Positions 10,268 through 43,652 of a DNA stretch of 46,344 nucleotides are shown here, piece by piece (the first letter of the stretch is position 1; each line of letters starts with the position of its first letter). The notes under the pieces were generated by a model. It was not told the DNA's origin and searched no databases. It saw only the letters and a program-made list of their open reading frames with translations. Both the position numbers and the translations under genes were made by a program. Source of the DNA: a virus; the IMG/VR virus record IMGVR_UViG_3300048837_001192, positions 1-46,344 of that record; one strand, 5' to 3'.

Positions 10268-10531
10268 ATGGCGCGCAAACGGAAATGGCAGTGGGTGAAA
10301 GTGATCGACCGCAAGCTGGGCTGCGAAGTGCAGCTCAACATGCCCACTCTGCGCGAGCTGCTTTCCGGCGAATGGGACTTCGGCGACGGGCTGCCCGAGT
10401 TGCCCCAGCCAGATCCAGACCCGCCCGACCTTGACGAGGTAGCGGAGCAGGTCGAGCGCCGGGTGCTGCTGGCCCACGTCGAGATCCAGTCCCGCGAGCG
10501 CGAACGCGCCCGCCGGCTACAGCGCCCGTAA
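10268..10531 (+). CDS. Small plus-strand protein inside the tail module
   Basis: An 87-residue protein on the plus strand, with a basic Trp-containing start (MARKRKWQWVKVIDRK), a Pro/Asp-rich middle (PQPDPDPPDLDE) and a charged helical end. Its stop overlaps the stop region of the minus-strand queC-like gene by 15 bp. No strong ribosome site precedes the ATG. The amino-acid composition is more natural than the opposite frame, which supports it as the real gene. Function unknown. Confidence 0.5.
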   Translation: MARKRKWQWVKVIDRKLGCEVQLNMPTLRELLSGEWDFGDGLPELPQPDPDPPDLDEVAEQVERRVLLAHVEIQSRERERARRLQRP

Positions 10532-11074
10532 CGCTTCCCGCCTGTGCCTGCAATTCTCGCAGCGTCCGCAGTGCCGCCCGCTCTGGCGTACGCAGGAATG
10601 GCTGGCCTTGATGAACTCGGGGGGCGCGCCCGCATCCAGCGCCGCCCGCACAAGCTCCGCCTTCGTCAGGTGCCTGACCGGGAACTCAACGCGAAACCCG
10701 GCCATGCCCACGGCCGCCCCGAAGTTCGCGGCCTGCACGGCCGCCCACTCGTCGCTGGCACCGTCGTCCGCCACCCACGCCAGTTGCACGGTGTCGAAGC
10801 CGCGCGCCCAAGCGAGCTGGCAGCAGATCATCTCGCGCGGGAGGTGGTACTCGCCGGCGCGCATGAACGGGCGGAAGTCGAACTCGACCGCAGTCAGCTT
10901 GTTCGCGAACTCGGCGCTCAGCTCCGCCATGCGCTCGATCGCGTCCATCTCGCCGATGTTCGCGTGCCTCGCCGGGCCGAAGCTGCCGCCGCAGTACACG
11001 GCCGGAGGCCTGCCCAGCACCCACCAGGCGCAGGCCGAGTCGAGACCGCCGCTGAACAACAGGCAGTTGGTCAT
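10517..11074 (-). CDS. queC: QueC-like 7-cyano-7-deazaguanine synthase
   Basis: A 185-residue ATP-pyrophosphatase-type protein. Residues 8-13 are SGGLDS, the PP-loop that binds ATP. Cys161, Cys169, Cys172 and Cys175 form the C-x7-C-x2-C-x2-C zinc site typical of QueC, which converts 7-carboxy-7-deazaguanine to preQ0. Bacterial QueC proteins are longer (about 220-230 residues), so this is a compact member. It lies among tail genes, overlapping the next gene by 4 bp. No queD, queE, folE or dpdA-like partner was recognised here, so precursor and use of the product would have to come from the host, or the enzyme has another substrate. Confidence 0.8.
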   Translation of the reverse strand: MTNCLLFSGGLDSACAWWVLGRPPAVYCGGSFGPARHANIGEMDAIERMAELSAEFANKLTAVEFDFRPFMRAGEYHLPREMICCQLAWARGFDTVQLAWVADDGASDEWAAVQAANFGAAVGMAGFRVEFPVRHLTKAELVRAALDAGAPPEFIKASHSCVRQSGRHCGRCENCRHRREALRAL

Positions 11075-11613
11075 GCGCCCAGGCCGTAGTGCGCGTCGAT
11101 GTTGGCGGCGCTGTCTTCCATGAACGCGCGCTTGGTGTGGTCGAGGCTGCGGTGCGGCGCCAGCACCAGCTGGCTGCCCTCGTAGCGCATGGCCGTGCGG
11201 CTCCAGACCAGGCGCTTGACGCTCTCCGCGTGCAGCGTCCAGCGCGGGCCGTACAGGATCTCGCTGCCGTCCTTGGGGCGCAGTGCCAGCGCCACGCTCG
11301 GCGGCATGCCATGCGTCGCTGTGCCCTGACCACCGCTGCTGTGGATGGCCGTGCCCGTGGAGAGCAGGGCGAGCAGCAGTTGCATCGTGGCGGCGCTGAC
11401 GTCGCGCACCGGGATGATCAGCTTTGCCGGGCTGGCAGCCGGCGCCGCCAGGGTCGCCCAGTTGTCGATTTCCGGGCCCGCGCCGAAGTGACGCACGGTG
11501 CGCCCGTCGTCGAACTCGATCCGGTCGTCGAGGATCCCGGCCAGCAGCGTGCCGCCGACCGCCGCGCTGGTCGGGTCGATGTACAGCTTGCCGGGGCGAG
11601 GGTGTGCGGACAT
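11071..11613 (-). CDS. Hypothetical virion-region protein
   Basis: A 180-residue protein, start at ATG 11613 (MSAHPRPGKLY). It has a mixed alpha/beta composition and no recognised motif. It lies between the HNH gene and the queC-like gene and overlaps the latter by 4 bp. A minor tail or virion-assembly role is possible from position only. Confidence 0.65.
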   Translation of the reverse strand: MSAHPRPGKLYIDPTSAAVGGTLLAGILDDRIEFDDGRTVRHFGAGPEIDNWATLAAPAASPAKLIIPVRDVSAATMQLLLALLSTGTAIHSSGGQGTATHGMPPSVALALRPKDGSEILYGPRWTLHAESVKRLVWSRTAMRYEGSQLVLAPHRSLDHTKRAFMEDSAANIDAHYGLGA

Positions 11614-11640
11614 TACGCTTCCCCCCCGCACCGGCTTGCA

Positions 11641-11711
11641 TACAATGAGCGAGGCCGGGCGCATTGGCGTGCGCGTCGGCCTCTGACCACTACCGTTCTG
11701 GAGGAACGATC
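11641..11711 (+). promoter_or_regulatory. Promoter and hairpin leader of HNH gene A
   Basis: TACAAT (11641-11646) is a good -10 box, followed by GAGC and a hairpin: GAGGCCG (11651-11657) pairs with CGGCCTC (11677-11683), with an inner GCGC/GCGC stem. The ribosome site GGAGG lies further downstream. The leader of HNH gene B (32067-31998, minus strand) has the same layout with a different but equally complementary stem, which indicates a conserved RNA structure. Confidence 0.6.
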
Positions 11712-12275
11712 ATGGCTGCAACCATTGAAGACTTGCCCGGTGAACTTTGGAAGCCCGTCGTGGGCTACGAGGGACTGTACGAGGTTTCTAATCTCGGGCG
11801 CGTGCGGTCGTTGGATCGTGTGGTTTTCAGGGGCGACACTCCCGTGCATCGCATAGGTCGGTTGATGTCCTGCGCCGCGCCCGACAGCAACGGTTATCGT
11901 AACGTGCGCATTTCGCGCGGCGGCCGAGGTCGCACGGTTCGCGTTTGCCGACTTGTCGCCGAGTCCTTCATCGGCCCTTGCCCCAAAGGCATGGAGTGTT
12001 GCCACTTCAACGGAATCCCGACGGATGACCGCGCGGCGAATCTTCGATGGGACACGCATCATGCCAACGTGCTTGACCGCGTGCGCCACGGCCGCGTGAC
12101 TGGGCCAAAGGGCAGCGCTTCGCAACACGCCAAACTTACAGAGGCGGACATTCCCGCAATCCGCGCCCGCATTGAACGCGGCGAGAGCGATGCCACGATA
12201 GCCGCCGACTACGGCGTCTCCGGCGCTTGCATCTGGACGATTCGACGTGGGCGTTCCTGGAAGCATGTTTCCTAA
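11712..12275 (+). CDS. HNH homing endonuclease A (NUMOD4-HNH)
   Basis: A 187-residue selfish DNA endonuclease. Residues about 8-35 match the NUMOD4 module (GELWKPVVGYEGLYEVSN), the middle has an HNH-type CCHFNG...ANLRWD core, and the C-terminus is a helix-turn-helix-like DNA-binding segment ending SWKHV. ATG 11712 has GGAGG upstream. It sits on the plus strand between minus-strand virion genes, with its stop directly abutting the stop at 12276, as expected for an insertion. It is clearly paralogous to the gene at 31425-31997, including the leader. Confidence 0.9.
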   Translation: MAATIEDLPGELWKPVVGYEGLYEVSNLGRVRSLDRVVFRGDTPVHRIGRLMSCAAPDSNGYRNVRISRGGRGRTVRVCRLVAESFIGPCPKGMECCHFNGIPTDDRAANLRWDTHHANVLDRVRHGRVTGPKGSASQHAKLTEADIPAIRARIERGESDATIAADYGVSGACIWTIRRGRSWKHVS

Positions 12276-31424: not shown

Positions 31425-31997
31425 TCAATCCACATGTTTCCATCTTCGCTTCGCCACAATCCCTGCTATGTGGCTGCAATTCATTCCAAGGCTTTCGGCG
31501 ATCAGAGCCGTTGACTCTCCAGCGGCGCGCCGCTGGCGGATGTCTCGCACTTGTTCTTCCGTCAACTTCGCCATTCCGTGCGACTCGCCCCTGTGCGGCT
31601 GAATCTCGAAGTGCGTGCCATGCCGCCTTGCGTCAGCGATGTTCCCAGAGCGTGAGTCCCATCTCAGGTTCGCCAGCGCTGTATTGGTCCGGTCTCCATC
31701 CACATGGCACGCTTCAGCGGCTTCCGGCCTGGCCCCAACAAACGCTTCCAGCACCAATTGATGGACAAGTGCGGACTTGCGTTTGCCGTTCTTATTCAGC
31801 ACCACTAGCGGATAGCCGCTTGAAGCGATCCCGGGCTTGATTACCCGCGTGGGCAGGCTTTTGCTGCCGCTGTGCGGGTGCAGTATCCTGCGCGCCTCGC
31901 TACGGACGCGACCGAAACTGCTCACCGAATAGCAGCCCTCGTACCCAACGACGGGCTTCCAAATTTCACCGGGCAAGTCTTGAATGGCCTCAGCCAT
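31425..31997 (-). CDS. HNH homing endonuclease B (NUMOD4-HNH)
   Basis: A 190-residue homologue of the gene at 11712-12275. NUMOD4 (GEIWKPVVGYEGCYSVSS) is followed by an HNH core (ACHVDGDRTN...ANLRWD) and a C-terminal helix-turn-helix-like segment ending RWKHV. ATG 31997 has AAGGAG upstream. It sits between RusA and the acidic-tail gene in the early operon. Its leader hairpin matches that of copy A in layout. Confidence 0.9.
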   Translation of the reverse strand: MAEAIQDLPGEIWKPVVGYEGCYSVSSFGRVRSEARRILHPHSGSKSLPTRVIKPGIASSGYPLVVLNKNGKRKSALVHQLVLEAFVGARPEAAEACHVDGDRTNTALANLRWDSRSGNIADARRHGTHFEIQPHRGESHGMAKLTEEQVRDIRQRRAAGESTALIAESLGMNCSHIAGIVAKRRWKHVD

Positions 31998-32067
31998 GGC
32001 GTCTCCTTGCGACGTTGTGGTTAGAGCCTGCGCGGTGTTTCCAGCACCCGCAGGCTCGCTCATTCTA
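31998..32067 (-). promoter_or_regulatory. Promoter and hairpin leader of HNH gene B
   Basis: On the minus strand TAGAAT (32067-32062) is a -10-like box, followed by a hairpin in which GAGCCTGCG (32057-32049) pairs with CGCAGGCTC (32032-32024), with an inner GGTG/CACC stem. The ribosome site and ATG follow. The layout and flanks equal those upstream of HNH gene A. Confidence 0.6.
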
Positions 32068-41752: not shown

Positions 41753-42271
41753 TCACCCTTTCTTCGGTGTGAGATGCTTCCAGTTCGCGGCCTTGGCGAC
41801 GCGCCAAGCCTGCATGGTTGAGATGCCGTACTTCTGCGCGAGTTCGCGGAAGAACATTCCTCGCGCCCTGTCGCGCCTCAGAGCGAGAACCTTCTTCGCA
41901 GTCAGGCGCGCGGCGTGGTTACTCTCTCCGCGCTCGTAGCCCGCGCGGGAGTGCGTCCCGCCTTTCACGGCGCGGCCCTTTGCGTGCATGTCTGCGTTGT
42001 TGTCGGCCATGGTGCCGAGGAACAAATGGTCGGGGCGGACACACGCGGGGTTGTCGCAGCGGTGGAGGACGCAAAGCCCCGGGGGAATTTCGCCGTTGTG
42101 CAGCTCCCACGAAAACCGATGCGCGGTCATCCGCTTGACGCCTGGCGCAGTGCGCCACGGGCACATCCCGTATCCTCGGGAGGTTTTGCCGCCGACCCAC
42201 TCCCAGCAACCGGAGGTCGTGCGTACCTTCGCCCAGAAGCGCGTTGCGGTTGTCGTGTGCAAAATCGGCAT
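41753..42271 (-). CDS. HNH homing endonuclease C
   Basis: A 172-residue nuclease from ATG 42271. CWEWVGGKTSRGYG is followed by the HNH core (LHRCDNPACVRPDHLFLGT) and a helix-turn-helix near the C-terminus (RELAQKYGISTMQAWRV). It is inserted between recT and the exonuclease, in the same orientation, without the hairpin leader seen for copies A and B. Confidence 0.9.
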   Translation of the reverse strand: MPILHTTTATRFWAKVRTTSGCWEWVGGKTSRGYGMCPWRTAPGVKRMTAHRFSWELHNGEIPPGLCVLHRCDNPACVRPDHLFLGTMADNNADMHAKGRAVKGGTHSRAGYERGESNHAARLTAKKVLALRRDRARGMFFRELAQKYGISTMQAWRVAKAANWKHLTPKKG

Positions 42272-42273
42272 CA

Positions 42274-43188
42274 CTACGCTTTCTTGGGCGTCCACAGGAA
42301 CCGGCGGTAGCCGGCAGGTTTGTGAGTGTGTTCGTCGATCAGCGTGGCGGGGGCCTTGAGCGCCTTGGCGACGGCCTCCCAGTCGGTCTTGGGCTTCTGG
42401 TTCACCTGCTTCCAGGTGACCTTGCCGGCGGGGCCAAACAGCCCGTCGTTGTCGGCGATCGCCGCCTGCAGCTCGCCCTTGAGCTCGTCCTCGACAGCCT
42501 CGGCGCTCTTGCGCGCCTCGTTGGCCTGGGCGAAGCGGGCGATCAGCTCGACCTCGTCGGGCGTGGCCTCGCGCAGATTGCCGTTGCTGGCGGCGTACAC
42601 GGAGCGGATGCTGTTCGCGTCGGCGCCGGCCGGGTTGGGCGGCACGTCGGCCTCGACGTGGTCGGTCCAGAACTGCTCGACCTTCTCGATCAGTGTGCCC
42701 TCGAGCTCGCGGTTGCGGTCGTAGCGGAACTCGCGGTAGTCGCCGCCGCCGTCGAACCATGCCGCGATCACCATGAACGGCACGTCGGCCAGCATCGTGT
42801 ACCAGGCGACCTGGCAGAGGTATTCCTCGGGGATGTGGTCGCTGCCGTCCTGGCCCCAGCGGTCGGCCTGGCGGAAGCCCGCCAGCTTGCACTCGACACC
42901 GTGGTTGCCGCGGAACAGGGCGTCGAGCTCGCCACGCATGAACGGCTTGTCCGTTCGCTGCAGCTCGACGTTGCGCTCGAACTTCTCGAACGGGAAGTCG
43001 TGGCGCTCGCAGTAGTCGCGCAGGATTTCCGGCTCGGCCAGGTTGCCCAGGCGGGCGCGGGTGCCGGCGCTGCTCTGCACGCCCTGCTTGATGCGGGCGT
43101 ACACGTCGAAGGCGTTCTTGAACGGGCTCAGGCCCACGATCGCGGCGACGTCCGAGCCGCCGATGCCTTTGGTTACGGTTGCGCTCAT
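42274..43188 (-). CDS. YqaJ-type recombination exonuclease
   Basis: A 304-residue lambda-exonuclease-fold protein. GIGGSDVAAIVGLSPF opens the domain; MRGELDALF and GVECKLAG provide the catalytic Asp and Glu-x-Lys. It degrades one strand of double-stranded DNA so RecT can anneal. The C-terminal 100 residues are a helical extension. Confidence 0.9.
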   Translation of the reverse strand: MSATVTKGIGGSDVAAIVGLSPFKNAFDVYARIKQGVQSSAGTRARLGNLAEPEILRDYCERHDFPFEKFERNVELQRTDKPFMRGELDALFRGNHGVECKLAGFRQADRWGQDGSDHIPEEYLCQVAWYTMLADVPFMVIAAWFDGGGDYREFRYDRNRELEGTLIEKVEQFWTDHVEADVPPNPAGADANSIRSVYAASNGNLREATPDEVELIARFAQANEARKSAEAVEDELKGELQAAIADNDGLFGPAGKVTWKQVNQKPKTDWEAVAKALKAPATLIDEHTHKPAGYRRFLWTPKKA

Positions 43189-43652
43189 GACCAGTACTCC
43201 CCCTCACCCGTGACCTCGATTACCGCGTCCGCGTAGCCCTCTGGGTGCAGATGCAGGCTGATCACGCGGGCGGACAGGATTTCGCTGTAGTGGACGTTGA
43301 CGGCCTTCCAGCCCTCGCGGTCCCAACTGTCATTGCGCGGGTCGCGGATGCTGGCGGCGTACTCGCCGCGCGCCTCGTGCAGCTCAAGCGCGGCCTCGGC
43401 CACGAACCAGGCCAGCACGTGCGCCTCGCCGGGCTCAAGGTCCACCTGGCGCGACTCCTGGATGCAGCGGTGCCCAGCGCCGTCCTCGATGGCGCGATCG
43501 ACGCCCCAGGTGCGCATGGCCTCGATGTCGGCGTCGAACGCACGCTTGAGGATCGCGCGCAGCACGGCCACGGCGTTGGCCTTCCACGCGCTCAGGTCGG
43601 GCACGGTGCTGGTAGGGCGTGAGTCGGTGAAGCCGGTCAGTGTGACGTTCAT
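43185..43652 (-). CDS. Hypothetical early protein
   Basis: A 155-residue protein coupled by overlaps to the exonuclease and HTH genes. Mixed alpha/beta with no recognised domain. Possible accessory to the recombinase pair by position. Confidence 0.7.
   Translation of the reverse strand: MNVTLTGFTDSRPTSTVPDLSAWKANAVAVLRAILKRAFDADIEAMRTWGVDRAIEDGAGHRCIQESRQVDLEPGEAHVLAWFVAEAALELHEARGEYAASIRDPRNDSWDREGWKAVNVHYSEILSARVISLHLHPEGYADAVIEVTGEGEYWS

Follow-up and report, generated by a model that had tools for sequence, protein, structure and literature searches.

Two endonuclease leaders in the phage genome

The window, by which we mean the whole stretch of 46,344 nucleotides analysed here, comes from a dsDNA phage that encodes a terminase, a portal, a major head protein and an integrase-like protein. 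Two of its genes, A and B, encode endonucleases in which the NUMOD4 and HNH_3 domains are both found above the Pfam cut-offs, and the two proteins are about 42% identical. Gene A lies on the + strand, opposite to its neighbours, and gene B lies on the − strand. The gene upstream of unit A (10517-11641, −) matches QueC-like queuosine biosynthesis and glucosamine synthase families. Elsewhere in the window, a protein of 484 aa (41753-43207, −) adjoins a RecT gene and carries an HNH domain in its last third only, which makes a nuclease fusion or insertion possible. The leaders of genes A and B, referred to as units A and B, contain the following features.

11641-11646 (+): sense −10 box TACAAT of unit A; TAnnnT stands directly 5' of H1 in most modules
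11647-11650 (+): GAGC of unit A
11651-11683 (+): hairpin H1 of unit A (GAGGCCG...CGGCCTC); read on the − strand, it is the hairpin at the 3' side of the predicted antisense RNA
11684-11690 (+): conserved TGACCAC of unit A; its complement is predicted to pair with AGCCAT in the antisense RNA
11694-11708 (+): hairpin H2 of unit A, CGTT, 7-nt loop CTGGAGG, AACG, with the ribosome site in the loop
11700-11704 (+): ribosome site GGAGG of unit A
11712 (+): ATG of gene A
11712-12275 (+): gene A, NUMOD4-HNH_3 endonuclease, 187 aa
11647-11717 (−): predicted antisense RNA of unit A, 5' end at 11717, which is nt 6 of the ORF
11724-11729 (−): antisense −10 box TTCAAT of unit A, within codons 5-6; weaker than the family consensus TAnnnT
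31425-31997 (−): gene B, NUMOD4-HNH_3 endonuclease, 190 aa
31997 (−): ATG of gene B
32000-32014 (−): hairpin H2 of unit B, CGTC, loop GCAAGGA, GACG, with the ribosome site in the loop
32017-32023 (−): conserved TAACCAC of unit B
32024-32057 (−): hairpin H1 of unit B
32062-32067 (−): sense −10 box TAGAAT of unit B
31992-32061 (+): predicted antisense RNA of unit B, 5' end at 31992
31980-31985 (+): antisense −10 box TTGAAT of unit B, within codons 5-6 of gene B; weak

The order reported in the first-pass annotation, which runs from a promoter-like box through a hairpin, TRACCAC and a ribosome site to ATG, is present in both leaders. Exact TANAATGAGCGAG occurs in the window only in these two leaders, and the hairpin model R1 matches the window at the same two loci only. 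The T-rich tail after H1', the antisense form of H1, is short in both units (GCTCATTGTA in A, GCTCATTCTA in B); in unit A, the complement of the TACAAT box supplies extra A/T for this tail. Reading the leader as an upstream ORF (ATGAGCGAG...) was rejected, as the frames stop at different places across leaders when inspected by eye.

The module precedes unrelated genes

An exact pattern scan of the 2.9 million viral contigs in IMG/VR gave 14 matches with the same element order. All of them are 46-49 nt long, have TAN before AATG and are followed by ATGGCT. When one element was relaxed as a control (GAGC without the second GAG), almost all matches were due to chance, with random length and context, L173 being the exception. 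The pattern shared by A and B is not a product of chance. The ORFs behind the 14 matches are mostly nucleases, of unrelated kinds.

Further pattern scans, together with a rule-based search over all fetched loci, yielded 90 distinct modules. Pfam families were assigned among 68 distinct ORFs behind modules, including A and B: HNH_3 in 13, HNH in 11 and HNH_5 in 10 (these HNH families overlap in members), Endonuclease_7 in 6, NUMOD4 and NUMOD3 in 3 each, GIY-YIG in 2 (plus one LEM-3-like), AP2 in 2, and LAGLIDADG_1 and Resolvase in 1 each. A separate batch of modules includes a viral SymE gene (L350) and a Bro-N antirepressor (L342), and the module also locates upstream of a plasmid repA. Several module-bearing small prophage ORFs (L377, L406, L423, L213, L417 and L369) presumably resemble Icd-like proteins; icd of phage P1 is under the control of another antisense RNA.

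The first-pass annotation had tied the leader to NUMOD4-HNH genes and expected further examples among them. Two more such genes do carry the module, L403 (recognised by sequence) and L405, but most modules stand on other genes. No trace of it was detected in about 95 of the nearest NUMOD4-HNH relatives, and unrelated genes carry it; the leader is not specific to this gene family. For the same absence in the nearest relatives, we discarded the idea that the leader is a part of the NUMOD4-HNH gene family itself.

We also observe at least two modules with different loops in single phages or genomes (L376, L255; G003, G763, G009, G771). Four Bradyrhizobium loci (L272-L274 and L278) have AATGAGCGAGGCTGCTG...GAGCCTCTGACCA in common and no ATGGCT behind it; this is a different, unexplained repeat and was set aside.

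Two hairpins covary in the leaders

When the H1 arms of 26 leaders were exchanged, the mean loss was 9 kcal/mol, and 20 of the 26 leaders paired best with their own arm. The proposal that the stems covary and that RNA structure is selected is thereby borne out. A second covarying hairpin, H2, had been overlooked and locates between TRACCAC and ATGGCT. For H2, a loop size of 7 nt stands out, with a stem of 4.1 bp compared with 2.5 bp in shuffles. The 7-nt loop occupies the centre of the linker and usually contains the ribosome site.

In the antisense alignment, 187 double changes were counted versus 65 ± 6.6, and the covariation score was 0.600 versus 0.167 (0.08-0.17 in slid controls), where the pair counts of alignment A4 lean towards structure because its rows, which also seed the model R2 described below, were N-padded and picked for a symmetric H2. 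The arm-swap, strand and −10 tests are free of this bias.

Strand of the selected structure

The antisense transcript folds better than the sense transcript in 89 of the 90 leaders. The mean difference in fold energy is −11.8 kcal/mol, compared with −2.6 in shuffles, and the strand folding test gives z of −5.8 versus −2.7. G-U pairs are ten times more frequent on the antisense strand of the 90 leaders (474/2475) than on the sense strand (45/1939). TRACCAC and ATGGCT also pair best on the antisense strand, as GUGGU with GCCAU, and the G-U at the first pair of this helix would be an A-C in the mRNA of all 90 modules.

Both strands carry promoter-like signals. The sense promoter of the modules scores 6.7 against a background of about 4.6. 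On the antisense strand, 66 of the 90 modules have a −10 box TAnnnT at ORF nt 13 or 14, compared with 0-6 of 90 at other positions; this position played no part in choosing the modules, and their ORFs are mostly unrelated. The antisense −35 and −10 elements combined reach 7.1 out of 12, versus 4.2 ± 0.3. With the usual spacing, a −10 box at nt 13 or 14 predicts a transcription start at ORF nt 6. In A and B, the antisense box takes a symR-like position (codons 5-7) but is weaker: TTCAAT and TTGAAT lack the A in second place, and these two units may therefore have weak antisense promoters. The selected structure is very probably that of an antisense RNA made from the opposite strand. Thus, selection on the structure, as first annotated, is upheld, and its assignment to the sense leader is not.

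We considered whether the hairpin instead acts within the endonuclease mRNA, as a 5' leader that sets the timing of translation or shields the 5' end of the mRNA, in the manner of T4. RNA hairpins control translation of T4-family homing endonuclease genes such as I-TevI, mobE and segB (PMC2988022), and the sense −10 box directly before H1 would let the mRNA start at or just before the hairpin. However, the T4 hairpin hides the ribosome site in cis by pairing it in a stem, whereas here the site is in the loop or at the loop edge in most of the 26 leaders and largely exposed. The G-U pairs suit the opposite strand, and the antisense −10 box is common to unrelated ORFs. We consider this account improbable, and with it the T4-type translation timing to which the first-pass annotation pointed. 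The hairpin may still play a secondary role in mRNA stability.

Relation to SymR and plasmid antisense RNAs

In E. coli, the symR promoter is located within the symE ORF. SymR is a transcribed RNA that lowers symE translation, also when given in trans, and a silent mutation in the symR −10 box raises SymE more than sevenfold (PMC1891008). The annotated start of symR is at nt 6 of symE, and ATTCTA at symE nt 14-19 reads as the −10-like TAGAAT on the antisense strand. The modules share with SymR/symE the antisense start at ORF nt 6 (predicted in the modules), the −10 box within the ORF at nt 14-19, an H2 with the ribosome site in a 7-nt loop, an H1 apex GTGC..AACAC and the TRAYCAC link. The regulated genes differ: SymR acts on the AbrB-fold toxin SymE, whereas genes A and B encode homing-type endonucleases of the NUMOD4-HNH kind.

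The Rfam symR model (RF01809) aligns, over its full length, with unit A at 11717-11648 (−; 20.4 bits), with unit B at 31992-32060 (+; 27.3 bits, E=0.0016) and best among phage relatives with the antisense strand of L117 (48.3 bits, E=3.9e-6), L118 and L122 matching as well, all below the gathering cut-off of 61 bits. The 75-nt antisense RNA of the IncQ plasmid R1162 (RF00043) shows the shared order H1, CUAACCAC, a hairpin with loop GCAAAGG, and AUGGCU. Its Rfam model matches over its full length in A with 33.0 bits (E=2.6e-4) and in B with 28.1 bits, both under the cut-off of 55 bits. Unlike the endonuclease leaders, the R1162 RNA controls plasmid replication. The RF00043 consensus ends in AUGGCU and reads as the mRNA-sense strand, the reverse of symR; Rfam may store this family in the orientation of its target. 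The PtaRNA1 model (RF01811) aligns weakly over its full length in phage L122 (30.7 bits versus a cut-off of 47) and has no match in the window.

Since the hairpin-only model R1 did not find symE, we built R2, a covariance model of the full antisense strand, from 29 phage and prophage modules, with symE left out of training. R2 detected E. coli symR in register (46.1 bits, E=1.8e-12), a viral SymE gene (E=2.8e-12), plasmid repA (5e-10), unit B, which was not a seed (31977-32064, +; 60.0 bits, E=9e-17), and unit A, which was one (11732-11644, −; 53.8 bits, E=7e-15), the E-values being rough because of a short calibration. Matches were obtained in 20 of 240 genomes from the class of Methylobacterium and 32 of 229 from that of Pantoea, both proteobacterial, and the controls gave 0 of 151 in Bacilli and 1 of 149 in Bacteroidia (24.5 bits). 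Detection within a wider SymR/R1162-like group is therefore reciprocal, in that a model trained without the reference recovers symR. The window leaders very probably belong to the SymR/R1162 type of antisense-RNA control module.

A recombination site made of folded single-strand DNA, similar to the integron attC and moving gene cassettes, would also account for one strand folding much better than the other and for an element upstream of many unrelated ORFs. Nevertheless, the homologue SymR is an RNA that is transcribed and acts in trans (PMC1891008), conservation falls on the two promoters, the ribosome site and the start codon, and neither a common 3' boundary nor an array was seen, so we regard such a site as very unlikely. 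Least probable of all is a mobile RNA-plus-ORF unit of the HEARO or OMEGA RNA type, in which the RNA guides the nuclease: the RNA does adjoin an HNH gene, but it overlaps the ORF start, matches no such Rfam family and is common to HNH, GIY-YIG, LAGLIDADG, resolvase and non-nuclease genes, a range of unrelated proteins that contradicts this reading.

The SAS/ESAS elements of cluster K mycobacteriophages are phage-specific repeats with inverted symmetry before start codons. Their sequence differs from that of the window leaders, and we know of no antisense promoter in them. In the literature searched, no report of SymR-type control of homing endonucleases was found.

Proposed control by antisense RNA

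We propose that each leader is a two-strand control module whose antisense RNA blocks endonuclease translation, as SymR does for symE, and we assign this reading a probability of roughly 0.88. It draws on sequence analysis of the structure, its strand, the position of the antisense promoter across unrelated ORFs and the in-register homology to SymR; from these we infer that the antisense RNA is produced in this phage.

In the proposed mechanism, the sense promoter would give rise to the endonuclease mRNA. The 5' end of this mRNA would form H1 and H2, and the ribosome site, in or next to the 7-nt H2 loop, would be left largely exposed. From a second promoter, which lies within the ORF at about codons 5 to 14, an antisense RNA of ~70 nt would be transcribed, with its 5' end at ORF nt 6, the complement of ATGGCT. 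This RNA is predicted to form a long hairpin with a 7-nt loop followed by H1', and to end behind H1'. It would meet its target, probably loop to loop, pair with the leader and block the ribosome site; the predicted RNA differs from the T4 hairpin in that it probably acts also in trans. The nuclease would be produced for a short time upon entry of the DNA into a cell that lacks the antisense RNA, and be silenced once a copy is established.

Cognate pairing of A or B is computed at about −160 kcal/mol, and cross pairing at −63 and −71. Together with the 77 different loops among the 90 modules, these energies indicate that the units are probably specific. The codons that carry the antisense start and adjoin its promoter would explain why unrelated proteins start alike, with ATGGCT (MA..., often MAD or MAE).

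Possible exchange between genes and wider meaning

The DNA of genes A and B is 87% identical across the first 21 codons and about 40% identical afterwards, and 14 of the 17 residues shared in the first part use the same codon. The common stretch includes the antisense promoter and continues for about 20 bp past it. Its end near codon 21 fits the exchange of a cassette, made up of leader and antisense promoter, from one endonuclease gene to another; strong selection on the bases concerned would fit as well. A mobile unit of RNA plus ORF had been suggested at first. The leader does behave as a unit on different ORFs; joint mobility of RNA and ORF is only plausible, and a search for an empty site with both flanking genes returned only a near-copy contig and no empty site.

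In a broader view, which we offer tentatively and at somewhat less than even odds, SymR, the R1162 RNA and the phage leaders would form one superfamily of antisense cassettes, each self-contained and quick to diversify, that pass between unrelated genes. On homing endonucleases, such cassettes would serve as copy-number and superinfection control: a resident antisense RNA would silence incoming copies with the same loop, and units such as A and B, whose loops differ, would not recognise each other, like plasmid incompatibility groups. If the antisense control proposed here is real, one RNA module joins phage homing endonucleases to the antisense RNA of a chromosomal toxin and to a plasmid RNA that sets copy number, and the silence of many free-standing phage endonucleases has a direct explanation. 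The module opens simple tests of antisense RNA as dosage and superinfection control of selfish genes.

Meanwhile, we notice an alphaproteobacterial genome (G022; L310, L486, L496) that holds 15 antisense modules in 1.9 Mb. The ORFs read behind them are alike (MADATLSHPYLRYHHFMQDP...), which suggests local amplification of the module together with its small ORF.
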